DNA of 64,000 nucleotides from Planctomycetota bacterium (GTDB lineage: Bacteria > Planctomycetota > Planctomycetia > Pirellulales > Lacipirellulaceae), in assembly GCA_029259915.1 (NCBI GenBank), contig JAJDED010000053.1, positions 149,436-213,435 on the forward strand, read 5' to 3'. Positions 2,363 through 55,889 of this stretch are shown here, piece after piece; position 1 is the first letter of the stretch; the number at the start of each line of letters is the position of its first letter. Under the pieces are notes generated by a model. That model was not told the origin of the DNA. It searched no databases and saw only the letters and a program-made list of their open reading frames with translations. Both the position numbers and the translations under genes were made by a program.

Positions 2363-3004
2363 TTGACCATTAGCGAATCCACCGCCCAACGGTTTACGGC
2401 GCAAGACCCCGACGTGCGGCTGATGCTCCAGGTGTGCGACGACAACGCGGGTGCGTTTGAAGAATTGATGCAGCGCTACCAGCACCGCGTGGTTTCGTTG
2501 ATGACCCATCTGGTGGGACGCCGCGACATGGCAGAAGACTTGGCACAAGATATTTTCTTGCGCGTGTATCGGGCACGCAAGCGGTATGTGCCGGGCTCGA
2601 AGTTTTCCACGTGGCTTTATACGATTGCAAACAATGTAGCTTCCAATGCACTGCGCGGGTTAGCGCGGCGTAAAGAAGTGAACTTGAACAATGGCAAGAG
2701 TGGAGAACTCCGAGGAAATCCGCTCGATGCGGTCGCCCTCGCTGCCAGCGGCTTGATGCCCACCCGGCAACTTGATAGATCGGAACTTCGGGAAGTCGTC
2801 AAACTTGCGGTCGCCACGCTCAACGACCGGCAACGGATGGCCGTGCTGCTCAACAAATTCGAACACCTGAGTTACGACGAAATCGCGGAAGTCATGCAAC
2901 TTGGCCCCACCGCAGTGAAATCGCTACTTTCGCGCGCCCGGACAAACTTGCGCGAGATACTCGAACCCTATCTGGACCAAGGAGAAAAACCCCGTGAATA
3001 TTGA
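2363..3004 (+). CDS. ECF-type RNA polymerase sigma-70 factor
   Basis: AFEELMQRYQHRVVSLMTHLVGRRDMAEDLAQDIFLRVYRARKRYVPGSKFSTWLYTIANNVASNALR (region 2) and LNDRQRMAVLLNKFEHLSYDEIAEVMQLGPTAVKSLLSRARTNLRE (region 4). TTG start. Confidence 0.92.
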   Translation: MTISESTAQRFTAQDPDVRLMLQVCDDNAGAFEELMQRYQHRVVSLMTHLVGRRDMAEDLAQDIFLRVYRARKRYVPGSKFSTWLYTIANNVASNALRGLARRKEVNLNNGKSGELRGNPLDAVALAASGLMPTRQLDRSELREVVKLAVATLNDRQRMAVLLNKFEHLSYDEIAEVMQLGPTAVKSLLSRARTNLREILEPYLDQGEKPREY

Positions 3005-3137
3005 ACCGCAAAGACACGAAGGCACAAAGGAAAGAAGAATGTCGTAAGCGAAAAGGATTGCTCGATCTCTAATAGCACAGTTCCTTTTAATCATTCCTAT
3101 TTTTAAATTATCTTCGTGCCTCTGTGTCTTTGTGGTT
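3004..3137. repeat. MITE-like inverted-repeat element, CAAAGACACGAAGGCAC-type arms
   Basis: Left aaccgcaaagacacgaaggcacaaagg; right cttcgtgcctctgtgtctttgtggtt, inverted; begins at the ECF sigma stop codon. Confidence 0.8.
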
Positions 3138-15369: not shown

Positions 15370-15387
15370 CTCAAACAAAAAATGATG

Positions 15388-15522
15388 AACCGCCAAGGAC
15401 GCCAAGGAATACAAAGTAATGCATCTCCCAGGCAAATAAACTACATCCCACAAACAACTGGAATTCAATTTTGATGCCTTAAAAAAACAATTCCTTGGCG
15501 CTCTTGGCGTCCTTGGCGGTTC
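15388..15522. repeat. MITE-like inverted-repeat element, CGCCAAGG-type arms
   Basis: Left aaccgccaaggacgccaaggaat (15388-15410); right attccttggcgctcttggcgtccttggcggtt (about 15490-15521), inverted; sits between OppB and OppC. Confidence 0.8.
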
Positions 15523-15551: not shown

Positions 15552-16658
15552 ATGACCAACTCGCCCAATAATTCGACCAATGCCACAGACGCCCCGCCGT
15601 CCGTCGGTTTTTGGGGCGAGGCGTGGCAACGCTTCCGGCGTCGCAAGTTGGCGATGATTGCGCTGTGGTTTGTCGTGTTGTTGTGCTTTACCGCACTGTT
15701 TGCCCCGATGATTGTCGGCACTAAACCAATCGTCTGCAAATATAAAGGCAACCTCTATTTTCCTTGTCTTGGCTATTACAAAAACAGTTGGGAAAATCCG
15801 GTCTTCCGCAAAGATCGTTTCCGCAACCGCTACACTATAAATCTCAAGAAAAAGGATCCCGAGAGTTGGGCAGTTTGGCCACTGGTTTATCAAGACCCCT
15901 ACCGCCGGGTGCGAAAAGGCGAATGGAAAGACCGCCAGGGAAACCCCTCAGGGACCAACGGTGCACCAAACCGCATCAACCTGTTCGGCACCAATCAGCA
16001 AGGGTTTGATGTGTTTGCCCAAATGGTCCACGGAACGCAAATCGCGCTGAGCGTCGGGTTCGTGTCGATGGGCATTGCCGGCGTGATTGGCATTACGATT
16101 GGCGCGCTGGCCGGTTATTTGGGAGGCTGGGTCGACACACTACTAAGCCGATTCATCGAGCTGGTGATGTGCATTCCTGCGCTCGTTTTAATTCTCGCGC
16201 TGGTGGCAATGCTTGATAACGTCAACAATTTTCATCTGATGGCAATCGTCGGTTGCACCAGCTGGACCGGCATTGCCCGACTGGCACGCGCGGAGTTTAT
16301 GAAGCTCAAGCAGATGGAATTCATCACCGCTGCCCGTGCGCTGGGCGCAAGCCGCTGGCGGATCATGTTTCGGTACGTGCTGCGCAACGCGCTAGCGCCG
16401 GTGTTGGTGCCGATCACCTTCGGCATTGCCGCGGCAATCCTGATCGAAAGCGGGCTAAGCTACCTCGGTTTCGGCGCCTCACCTCCCAACCCCAGTTGGG
16501 GCACACTGCTCAAAAGTGGCCGCAGCACCATCCAACAAACCTGGTGGCTAATCGTATTCCCCGGCACGGCAATTTTTCTCACCGTACTGGCCTACAACCT
16601 CATCGGCGAAGGCCTCCAAGAAGCAACCGATCCCAGGCTACGGCAGGATAGCCATTAA
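15552..16658 (+). CDS. Peptide ABC transporter permease, DppC/OppC type
   Basis: FGTNQQGFDVFAQMVHGTQIALSVGFVSMGIAGVIGITIGALAGYLGGWVDTLLSRFIELVMCIPALVLILAL; EFITAARALGASRWRIMFRYVLRNALAPVLVPITFGIAAAILIESGLSYLGFG. Confidence 0.95.
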   Translation: MTNSPNNSTNATDAPPSVGFWGEAWQRFRRRKLAMIALWFVVLLCFTALFAPMIVGTKPIVCKYKGNLYFPCLGYYKNSWENPVFRKDRFRNRYTINLKKKDPESWAVWPLVYQDPYRRVRKGEWKDRQGNPSGTNGAPNRINLFGTNQQGFDVFAQMVHGTQIALSVGFVSMGIAGVIGITIGALAGYLGGWVDTLLSRFIELVMCIPALVLILALVAMLDNVNNFHLMAIVGCTSWTGIARLARAEFMKLKQMEFITAARALGASRWRIMFRYVLRNALAPVLVPITFGIAAAILIESGLSYLGFGASPPNPSWGTLLKSGRSTIQQTWWLIVFPGTAIFLTVLAYNLIGEGLQEATDPRLRQDSH

Positions 16659-16669
16659 CCAATAAAATG

Positions 16670-17155
16670 AACCACAGATTACATAGATGTGCACGGATTG
16701 AAAAAGATAGAGGGTCTTGGTTGTATTATCTTCAAGGGTTTCTACGATGACTTCCAAGTTGATTCACGAGGAGTTAAGCGGCAAGGTAATTGGCGCAGCG
16801 ATGCAAGTGCACAATATGTTGAGACCAGGATTAGACGAAAAGGTCTATGAAAATGCACTAGTCATTGAACTTGAGCACATGGGCCTCGAGGTAAAGCAAC
16901 AAACTCGATTTCCTGTGAAGTATCGAGAGCAACTGGTTGGGACTTTAATACCTGACTTGATCGTAAACAATCGAATTATCGTCGACACTAAAGTCGTTAC
17001 CGAATTTAACGACGCTCACGTAGCACAAATAATTGGTTACCTCACCATCACTGGTTTGGATCTGGCATTATTGGTAAATTTCAAACACGCCTCACTAAAA
17101 TGGAAACGTGTTGTTCGATAATTTCATCCGAGATATCAGTGAAATCCGTGGTTCC
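16670..17155. mobile_element. Candidate composite repeat element: imperfect inverted arms (AACCACAGATTACA / TGAAATCCGTGGTT) flanking a GxxExxY gene
   Basis: Left aaccacagattacatagatgtgcacggatt; right tttcatccgagatatcagtgaaatccgtggtt; arms only partly complementary. Located between oppC and oppDF. Confidence 0.45.
16747..17121 (+). CDS. GxxExxY family protein (PD-(D/E)XK-like)
   Basis: LIHEELSGKVIGAAMQVHNMLRPGLDEKVYENALVIELEHMGLEVKQQTRFPVKYREQLVGTLIPDLIVNNRIIVDTKVVTEFNDAHVAQIIGYLTITGLDLALLVNFKHASLKWKRVV; contains GLDEKVY and the family core. Confidence 0.88.
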   Translation: MTSKLIHEELSGKVIGAAMQVHNMLRPGLDEKVYENALVIELEHMGLEVKQQTRFPVKYREQLVGTLIPDLIVNNRIIVDTKVVTEFNDAHVAQIIGYLTITGLDLALLVNFKHASLKWKRVVR

Positions 17156-17180
17156 AGACTAGAAACAAAACTGAATTCCT

Positions 17181-19046
17181 ATGACTGAAGCCGTTTTAGA
17201 TATCACCGACCTGCGCACCTTTTTCCATACCGACGAGGGCGTGGTGCGCGCTGTGGATGGAGTGACCTTTCGCATCGACGAAGGGCACACGCTTGGCATC
17301 GTCGGCGAAAGTGGCTCCGGCAAGTCGGTCACTTCACTCTCGGTCATGCAACTGCTGGCCTCCTCGGCAAAAATTGAGTCGGGCAAGATCGCGCTCCTAG
17401 GAAAAGACCTGGTCGGACTCCCCGAGCCCGAAATGCGTGACATCCGCGGCAAGGATGTCAGCATGATCTTCCAAGAGCCGATGACATCGCTCAATCCCGT
17501 GTTCACGGTCGGCGCCCAGGTGATCGAGGCAATTGTTATCCATCAGCGCGTGGCCAAACAAGAAGCCCGGCGACGCACAATTGAACTGTTCCGCGAAGTG
17601 GGCATTCCCAACCCTGAGCAGAGGGTCGATTCTTATCCCCATCAAATGTCGGGCGGCCAGAAGCAGCGGGTGATGATCGCGATGGCCCTTTCGTGCAATC
17701 CCAAGCTGTTGATTGCCGACGAACCCACCACTGCGCTCGACGTGACGATCCAGGCACAGATACTAGAAATGCTCCGCAAACTGCGCGACGAGCGCGGTAT
17801 GGCCATCCTGTTTATCACCCACGACCTGGCAGTGATCGCCGAGATTGCCGACGAAGTGATGGTGATGTATCAGGGCGAAATGGTCGAATACGGCCCGGTG
17901 CTCGATATTTTTTCAGAGCCCAAGCACCCCTACACCAAGGGACTGTTGGCCTGCCGACCGAGGCTCGACAGCACGTATCGCCGCCTGCCGACGGTCGACG
18001 ATTTTATGACCGTCAAACAAGTCGAGGGTCAGCTGCAAATTATTGAAAAGAAAATGGACGACGCCCGGCTCAAAGAATTGGCCGAGTCGGGTCGCGGTCG
18101 CTTGCTGCATTCACAATCGGAGTTGGCCGCGATGGGGCATCCCTGGGAAGCCACCCCACGCGCAAGCGACACCACCGCGGTTGAAGAAGGAACAACGCCG
18201 CTCTTGGAAGTCGAAAATCTCAAAGTTCATTTTCCCGTGCGGCGTGGGGTCCTCGCGCGGGTGGTCGACCACGTGCGCGCGGTCGACGGCATCAGCTTTC
18301 GTGTCTATCGCGGGCAAACCCTCGGTCTGGTCGGCGAATCGGGATGCGGAAAAACGACCGCCGGCAGGGCTATCCTCCGACTGATCGAACCGACATCAGG
18401 CACGGTCCGCTTCGATTCTATCGATTTGGCAAAACTCGGTTCCAGAGAATTGCGAAAAATTCGCAGCCGTATGCAGGTCATTTTCCAAGACCCTTACGGA
18501 TCGCTCAATCCTCGGATGACGATCGAATCGGCGCTGACCGAGCCGATGGTCATTCAGCGCATCGGCGGGTCGCGAAAAGATCGCCGCGATCGGGCGGCTG
18601 CCCTGTTGGAAGAAGTCGGCATGAGTGCTATCCACTTACGCCGTTACCCCCACGAATTTTCCGGCGGCCAACGGCAGCGCATCTGCATCGCTAGGGCAAT
18701 CGCCGTAGAGCCCGAATTCATCATTTGCGACGAGTCAGTCTCCGCGCTCGACGTTTCGGTGCAAGCACAAGTTTTGAATTTACTGAACGAACTCCAAGAC
18801 AAGCGTGGCCTGACCTATATCTTCATTAGCCACGATCTGAGCGTGGTTAAATTCATGGCCGACATGATGGCCGTAATGAACGACGGCAAAATCGTCGAAT
18901 TTGGCCCCTCGCAGGCCATCTATGCGGACCCGCGCGAGGACTATACCCGGCGATTGATCAGTGCCACCCCAAACGACGATCTCGATCACATCCGCAAGCT
19001 GGTTGCCCAACGCAAAGAGCGTCGGGCAGCAAACGCAGCTTCGTAA
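17181..19046 (+). CDS. Fused dipeptide/oligopeptide ABC transporter ATP-binding protein (OppD-OppF type, two ATPase domains)
   Basis: Two Walker A motifs ([17 protein letters not shown]), two signature motifs ([16 protein letters not shown]), two Walker B motifs ([20 protein letters not shown]). Confidence 0.95.
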
Positions 19047-28834: not shown

Positions 28835-28932
28835 AATAGCCACAAAAAACACAAAAAGTCACAAAGAAATCGCTTTGCCGAAACGTATCCAATACTCCCT
28901 TTTTTGTGTCTCTTTGTGTTTCTTGTGGCTAT
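28835..28932. repeat. MITE-like inverted-repeat element (ATAGCCACAAAAAACACAAAAAGTCACAAA...)
   Basis: Left atagccacaaaaaacacaaaaagtcacaaag; right tttttgtgtctctttgtgtttcttgtggctat; clear imperfect inverted arms. Confidence 0.8.
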
Positions 28933-28978
28933 TGTCTTTTGATTATGGCGCTGGCCGTGCTGAATCGTTTCTGCACCG

Positions 28979-30070: not shown

Positions 30071-30103
30071 AGGCGTACCTTAAATGACTTAAACTAAAAA
30101 ATG

Positions 30104-30228
30104 AACCGCCAAGAGCGCCAAGTACGCCAAGAAATGCGGTGGAAACTCATTGCCCTACAGATACACCGTCTCCGATAAACGACTGATATCCAATGTTATA
30201 AGGAATCGAAAAAAATCCTTGGCGGTTT
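30104..30228. repeat. MITE-like inverted-repeat element, CGCCAAG-type arms
   Basis: Left aaccgccaagagcgccaagtacgccaagaa; right aaaatccttggcggttt, inverted. Confidence 0.7.
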
Positions 30229-30268
30229 TCAGTTTAGTTAAATAAGAACGAAAATCATCTCGGCTGTT

Positions 30269-44941: not shown

Positions 44942-44962
44942 TAATCGAGTTCGATTAGAATA

Positions 44963-45040
44963 AACCGCCATGGGCGCCAAGAACGCCAAGGTATTATCAA
45001 TAATAAATCCTAACTCCGTGTTCTCCGTGACTCCGTGGTA
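44963..45040. repeat. Chimeric inverted-repeat-like element (CGCCAAG left arm, CCGTG-type right arm)
   Basis: Left aaccgccatgggcgccaagaacgccaagg; right ctccgtgttctccgtgactccgtggt; the two arms belong to different arm families. Confidence 0.6.
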
Positions 45041-45068
45041 AAAATCATTCAAGCCGACGAGGAAAATC

Positions 45069-55727: not shown

Positions 55728-55748
55728 GAAACTCAGAACTAAGAAGTG

Positions 55749-55889
55749 AACCGCCAAAGATGTTAAGAAGGGGCTAGGATCTAGGGGCTGGGAAATTCTG
55801 CAATTCGCAATCCGAATTCTGCATTCCCTCGTCCTGCATCCTGCTCCTTTCAACAATTTCCTTGGCGCTCTTGGCGTCCTTGGCGGTTT
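55749..55889. repeat. MITE-like inverted-repeat element, CGCCAAGG-type arms
   Basis: Left aaccgccaaagatgttaagaagg; right tccttggcgctcttggcgtccttggcggtt; right arm nearly identical to the one at 15491-15521. Confidence 0.75.

Follow-up and report, generated by a model that had tools for sequence, protein, structure and literature searches.

GxxExxY nuclease-like genes between inverted arms of repeated 7-nt words: a candidate family of elements with cognate intergenic hairpins

We describe a unit between oppC and oppDF that is probably a cassette belonging to a large family of elements, in which a word-reading nuclease is paired with cognate hairpin sites. GxxExxY, a small PD-(D/E)XK nuclease, would recognise a 7-nt DNA word that is present in about three copies per arm of an inverted pair. 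Such arms flank the gene itself, and gene-less hairpins of these word families are spread through intergenic DNA. Acting in trans on paired arms, and presumably cleaving DNA at the words, GxxExxY would copy them, move them and keep them alike. Its role would resemble that of a RAYT towards its REPINs, and the gene often remains at a single site. Matching arms and gene-less hairpins together suggest an undescribed mobile DNA family. Throughout, the window is the whole 64-kb stretch of DNA that we analysed.

Results

A GxxExxY gene within inverted word arms

The GxxExxY gene lies at positions 16747–17121 on the plus strand of the window and encodes, from an ATG start, a predicted PD-(D/E)XK nuclease-like protein of 124 aa; a TTG at 16717 is a possible alternative upstream start. 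The protein belongs to family TIGR04256 (E=3.5e-40, 137 bits, cut-off 35) and matches PF13366 (PDDEXK_3) with E=4.8e-37 and 127 bits against a cut-off of 22. Its neighbours, parts of a peptide-transport operon, are oppC (15552–16658) on one side and an oppDF fusion (17181–19046) on the other. The left arm (16669–16699, plus strand) carries the words CACAGAT (16673–16679), CATAGAT (16682–16688) and CACGGAT (16692–16698), and the right arm (17122–17154) carries, on the minus strand, CACGGAT (17144–17150), CACTGAT (17135–17141) and CTCGGAT (17126–17132), each arm consisting of AACC followed by three imperfect copies of CRCNGAT. With at most one mismatch allowed, GAACCACRGATT occurs twice in the 64 kb, precisely at the two outer arm ends and inverted with respect to each other. 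Together with the profile matches, this confirms the first-pass annotation, which had placed a GxxExxY ORF inside inverted arms between oppC and oppDF.

Either window arm reaches a three-word chain score of 20/21, which has a P of ~0.0003 among random 60-mers of the window, under a chain definition made after the arms had been seen. As a plain inverted repeat the arms are weak (score 26, shuffle maximum 25–28) and are degenerate or decayed. Given that the window copy only attains the shuffle maximum, our argument rests on other members of the family. The window protein shares 67% identity with a homologue from Opitutaceae, which lies at a site without an opp operon, and at most 46% with the other GxxExxY copies in its own genome.

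Arms accompany GxxExxY genes across genomes and phyla

Seven GxxExxY genes are present in the genome of the window. Six have strong inverted arms (scores 37–49, shuffle maximum 25–30), the seventh being the window copy with its weak arms, and the words mostly differ from gene to gene. We assembled 89 unique GxxExxY genes from this genome, related genomes and a few genomes of other phyla; arms exceed the 99% shuffle threshold in 85 and score at least 32 in 75, a level reached by 6 of 1151 control ORFs, 3 of 608 random intervals and none of 1780 shuffles. Arms flank 116 of 124 genes in an enlarged set. A later sample of 104 genes, taken from phylum-wide genomes and from seven genomes of other loci (the same phylum and others), yielded arms in 90, with 81 scoring at least 32 as against 0/520 shuffles. 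The association that the first-pass annotation had suggested testing thus recurs in many genomes and several phyla, and does so much more often than chance would allow: arms are found at 206 of the 228 GxxExxY genes examined, compared with ~3% of random intervals. Although the window arms, taken as a plain inverted repeat, lie near the shuffle maximum, the empty shuffle sets at the score reached by most genes, and control patterns read backwards, which gave only 0–3 matches per genome and strand, leave a negligible probability that the arms are a chance or compositional artefact of short repeats.

The arm words follow the pattern C-R-C-N-R-A-K, with spacers of 1–4 nt and about three words per arm. 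They include CACGGAG, CGCCAAG, CACGACG, CGCGAAT and CACGGAT, and within any one cassette the two arms have the same word. At five loci (L085:3230-3565, L166:2413-2688, L039, L102 and L112) the arms of GxxExxY genes carry words outside this pattern (ACAGGAT, GGGAGAT/GGGGATA, GGAGCAGAG), so that the range of words exceeds the pattern behind our statistics. A search of gene-sized loops in CRCNRAK arm grammar identified GxxExxY in 24 of 26, in a census for which most regions had been fetched because of their GxxExxY gene; the remaining two are GxxExxY genes as well. Other cargo genes in CRCNRAK arms were sought and none was retained, two apparent exceptions being GxxExxY loci read on the wrong strand. 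Within Planctomycetota, GxxExxY genes are present in 96 of 199 sampled genomes.

Four-helix S23 genes (TIGR02436) have arms of another kind: 30 of 33 are bracketed by inverted tandem words of period 7 (GTTAGCT, GTCAGCT, GCGAGTT), at loci L008, L009, L010 and L113–L140 of the window's genome and its relatives. GxxExxY and S23 are two gene families with two arm grammars. A gene-less palindrome at 59119–59208 of the window is built of GATTGCTGATTTATGATTGCTGA words, and its grammar is S23-like. The same genome also has dispersed palindrome classes that are not related to the word arms, AAGCCCGGAGGGCT...CCTTAGCCGGTG and CGTAGCCTRGGGCAAC (L216:1442-1586, L217:13107-13304, L222:4081-4294, L228:4469-4682 and L228:11619-11814).

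A predicted Cas4-like nuclease

Among GxxExxY proteins, E31, Y34, D70 and N111 are invariant and G28, K82, Q94 and Y98 are near-invariant. The predicted active site comprises E31, D70, D80, K82 and Q94xxxY98, the last of which we take to be the QxxxY motif of RecB/Cas4 nucleases, and both the predicted fold and these residues are those of the PD-(D/E)XK superfamily. The folds nearest to an AlphaFold model of the window protein (pLDDT 97) are Cas4, lambda exonuclease and LHK-Exo, with Hjc also matching; for SSO0001 Cas4, the TM score is 0.60 on the query. The model is consistent with an intact Cas4/lambda-exonuclease-like nuclease that would be catalytically active. No convincing sequence relative was found in the PDB. 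An anti-phage defence system was considered and rejected, as the window protein matched no PADLOC family at E≤1; a phage family was likewise rejected, the PHROG matches being weak only, including a RecE-like exonuclease at E=0.29.

We also considered an RNA device. In this reading the transcribed arms would pair into a stem, as happens in rRNA intervening sequences or in the transcript of a type III toxin-antitoxin system, and that RNA would be what the protein acts on. In its favour, the arms are capable of pairing, and RNase III processes the stems that S23 intervening sequences form in 23S rRNA (PMC4990558). However, arm mismatches on the gene strand have no G-U bias (111 vs 119), which points to DNA and away from an RNA stem. 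Moreover, an Rfam search returned no matching family, the nearest folds are DNA nucleases, and inverted sets of words stand on either side of the gene. We give the RNA device only a small chance.

Gene-less hairpins built from the same grammar

The window contains eight ORF-less elements with the grammar ACC plus three CRCNRAK words, and these are mostly other words than those of the cassette (CGCCAAG, CACGGAG/CACAGAG, CRCRAAG and CACAAAR). CGCCAAG words form the elements at 15387–15522, which lies between oppB and oppC and is absent in G001, G007, G008 and G011, at 30098–30236, absent in G001, and at 55748–55888, also absent in G001 and with an S23-type word array (GGGGCTAGGATCTAGGGGCTGGG) nested in its loop. 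CACGGAG words form those at 59890–60023, with a diverged copy at the same site in G001, and at 61574–61707, absent in G001. The element at 3004–3137 has CRCRAAG words and is absent from the orthologous site in G008, that at 28835–28933 has CACAAAA/CACAAAG words and is absent in G001 and G009, and that at 44957–45043 is chimeric, with CGCCAAG words in its left arm and CACGGAG words in its right. In all, relatives lack six of these elements at the orthologous junctions. Folding of four elements gave, in every case, a hairpin far stronger than those of shuffles (z −5.7 to −9.4).

The first-pass annotation had likened the arm ends of the cassette to the termini of these elements and had suggested that the short elements may be MITE derivatives. 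The likeness extends to the grammar and mostly stops short of the word. Derivation fits one decayed ORF-less cassette (L053). The short elements of the window are mostly not derived from the window copy and represent other word families; the words of two such families match those of further GxxExxY genes in this genome.

A 454-kb sample of this genome, mostly whole stretches of two contigs chosen without regard to the elements, contains 47 short palindromic pairs, ~30 of them of CRCNRAK grammar, compared with none in 204 kb of shuffled sequence; extrapolated from this sample, the genome has an estimated ~300 intergenic hairpins. Genome-wide counts are based on pattern searches and the 454-kb sample. 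For three word families, pooled, the median number of word pairs per genome is 35 with a cognate GxxExxY gene and 1 without (p=4.7e-5), and this link in trans has a p of 0.024 when words are permuted within genomes. In a related genome without GxxExxY there are no pairs of any of the three tested words. Some words occur without a cognate gene, namely in the CGCTAAG and CACAAAG hairpins of the window's genome and in the many CGCCAAG pairs of G002, in whose incomplete assembly the cognate gene was not found.

Loops within one word family mostly share no sequence, relatedness being confined to a subgroup of the CGCCAAG loops. We therefore rejected loop homology as proof of whole-unit copying, which is not established for these hairpins. 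A small palindrome, TCAGGTGCGGCACCTGA, recurs in the loops of CGCCAAG elements of the same genome (C3:187775-187837 and C32:42156-42222).

Protein residues covary with word letters

Across genomes, word similarity correlates with protein identity (Mantel r=0.45, p<0.0005, permutation maximum 0.10). Given that linked inheritance alone could produce this correlation, we tested residues against letters under a phylogenetic null, in which letters were simulated on a protein tree built with the candidate columns excluded (the column after VH in an analysis of 98 elements, both columns in an analysis of 177). Two helix-A positions stand out against the word letters in the 98 elements. In the 177 elements combined, word position 5 covaries with the helix-A residue that corresponds to S11 (z=20). 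Position 7 covaries with the residue that follows VH, corresponding to N23 (z=6.1), and position 4 with a third protein column (z=7.6); the maxima under the phylogenetic null are ~4.4–4.6, with a 95% level of the maximum of 4.4 for the position 5 test. Where the S11-equivalent residue is Thr, word position 5 is G in 79 of 80 elements, and where it is Ala, position 5 is A in 25 of 27.

With the rules fixed beforehand, 79 new elements followed them at position 5 in 47/48 cases for Thr with G and 7/8 for Ala with A, and at position 7 in 12/14 for Asn with T and 26/33 for Arg with G; this out-of-sample set includes R-to-T exceptions. An independent-pairs test on well-supported branches gave the same direction, with too few pairs for significance. 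One orthologous locus, for which most pairs among eight genomes share >1 kb of flank on both sides, offers a natural experiment. At L099 the words are CGCAGAG/CGCGGAG, with G at position 5, and the protein has Thr, while the orthologues have CGCNAAG words with A at position 5 (L027 mostly) and Ser or Ala in the protein. Position 5 has switched from A to G here, which supports the residue-letter rule. In the window protein, N23 occurs with a word ending in T, matching the rule, and S11 is a residue that occurs with either letter; S11 and N23 are its predicted word-reading residues.

These data bear on whether GxxExxY is the nuclease of the repeats or a passenger, the two roles that the first-pass annotation had offered. 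A passenger would sit between repeats moved by another enzyme or generated through slippage at replication and through conversion. GxxExxY is not known to excise or cut DNA, and S23 genes lie in similar arms, such that the arm type is not unique to GxxExxY. Against this, the covariation exceeds phylogeny and held out of sample, the GxxExxY and S23 families have different arm grammars, and hairpin counts track the resident cognate gene. The covariation and the trans link favour a cognate nuclease, and we assign the passenger reading, which they disfavour, only a slight chance.

Presence and absence of elements at orthologous sites

The oppC-oppD spacer has different contents in different relatives. 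It measures 43–74 nt in G026, G029 and G030. In G008 and G015 it holds a GxxExxY gene different from that of the window, and in G007 a frame-shifted copy of this G008/G015 type; in G011 it has arms with a C-terminal remnant only, and in G001 and G009 other repeats. The same-site copies in G008 and G015 carry CACGAAA and CGCAAAA words, and so the arms have changed in concert. Compared over the window interval 16659–17180 and spacers L049–L054, the word-arm elements differ from relative to relative (two GxxExxY types and S23-type word arrays), and the spacer looks as if it were a preferred site for word-arm elements. Empty orthologous sites, for which the first-pass annotation had called, thus exist both in this spacer and at the junctions of the ORF-less elements.

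In two cassette pairs, L274/L296 and L267/L269, the similarity runs precisely from one arm to the other and the flanks are unrelated, and G004 has two dispersed cassette copies with 89% identity. Many GxxExxY genes are vertically inherited at the same locus across genera, a behaviour closer to that of a resident RAYT than to that of an active transposon. No target-site duplication was detected in 151 elements (mean 1.55, null 1.59). Arm-to-arm units and presence/absence differences are thus observed, and the mobilisation that the first-pass annotation had suggested is inferred.

The same observations bear on a further alternative, in which GxxExxY would be a self-regulating nuclease with the arms as its operators, and the ORF-less hairpins would be host-kept binding sites, terminators or decoys, and not mobile DNA. 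Covariation indicates recognition and not transposition, the 151 elements lack target-site duplications, and many cassettes stay at one locus across genera, all of which would suit operators. However, relatives differ in which sites have elements, and the two cassette pairs correspond over the arm-to-arm unit within unrelated flanks. In addition, a repressor has no need of a conserved nuclease active site, and operators do not usually take the form of palindromic word arms flanking a gene. We regard the operator reading as unlikely, and continue with the reading of a word-reading nuclease and its hairpin sites.

Discussion

We hold it somewhat better than an even bet that these elements constitute a new class of bacterial mobile DNA, in which a stand-alone Cas4-like nuclease would read a repeated word and co-evolve with it residue by letter, with a parallel S23/IVS class of period 7. 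In the literature searched, which covered few subscription journals, we found no description of a GxxExxY-arm system. The papers found assign no role to GxxExxY, which is named in two of them, in one only in passing beside a reverse transcriptase; the literature searched does not name PDDEXK_3, and no biochemistry for any GxxExxY member was found. GxxExxY genes are widespread, and they now have a proposed cognate DNA site and a testable job. The word families of GxxExxY account for a large set of intergenic hairpins, and a simple residue-to-letter rule for a small, putative DNA-reading nuclease is open to direct test. In view of the S23 parallel, rRNA intervening sequences may be one branch of a broader class of intergenic elements.

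Several known systems resemble the one described here. Rpn proteins (YhgA-like, PF04754) have the PD-(D/E)XK fold. They are nucleases reported to promote DNA transfer and, later, to act in phage defence (PMC5350276, PMC10327210); they form another Pfam family, and the abstracts mention no flanking word arms. Classical IS/MITE transposons share with the cassettes the terminal inverted repeats around an enzyme gene. In contrast to them, the 151 elements lack target-site duplications, and the cassette holds a PD-(D/E)XK domain only, with no DDE, HUH, serine or tyrosine recombinase. The nuclease domains of Cas4, lambda exonuclease and AddAB are the closest folds and have the same D...(D/E)xK...QxxxY pattern; identity to them is 10–18%, and GxxExxY differs in that its 124-residue domain stands alone and is tied to repeat arms of its own.

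The intervening sequence (IVS) of Coxiella, which has been called a selfish element, has a small S23 ORF between inverted ends and three tandem GACAGAT heptamers upstream of that ORF (PMC4990558). The heptamers recall the period-7 arms around S23 genes in our genomes. An IVS is inserted in a helix of 23S rRNA and carries an S23 ORF. By contrast, the window unit is located between oppC and oppDF and codes for GxxExxY, a protein unrelated to S23; the cassettes are intergenic, and their mismatches are not RNA-pairing-like.

REPINs are short intergenic hairpins with two inverted repeat ends and less conserved spacers; several sequence types coexist per genome, each tied to its own, usually single-copy, enzyme gene, and end sequence and enzyme are thought to co-evolve (PMC3116915, PMC2817692). 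The elements described here have in common with them dispersed intergenic hairpins and an end type that matches a resident enzyme, a likeness that we use as a working analogy only. The REPIN-RAYT enzyme is an HUH tyrosine (Y1) transposase, whereas GxxExxY has a predicted PD-(D/E)XK, Cas4/lambda-exonuclease fold; each REPIN end is one REP, whereas an arm here consists of about three successive 7-nt words, and the GxxExxY gene sits inside two matching arms. By analogy, the GxxExxY system would work like REPIN-RAYT, and it falls outside that family because its enzyme is unrelated.
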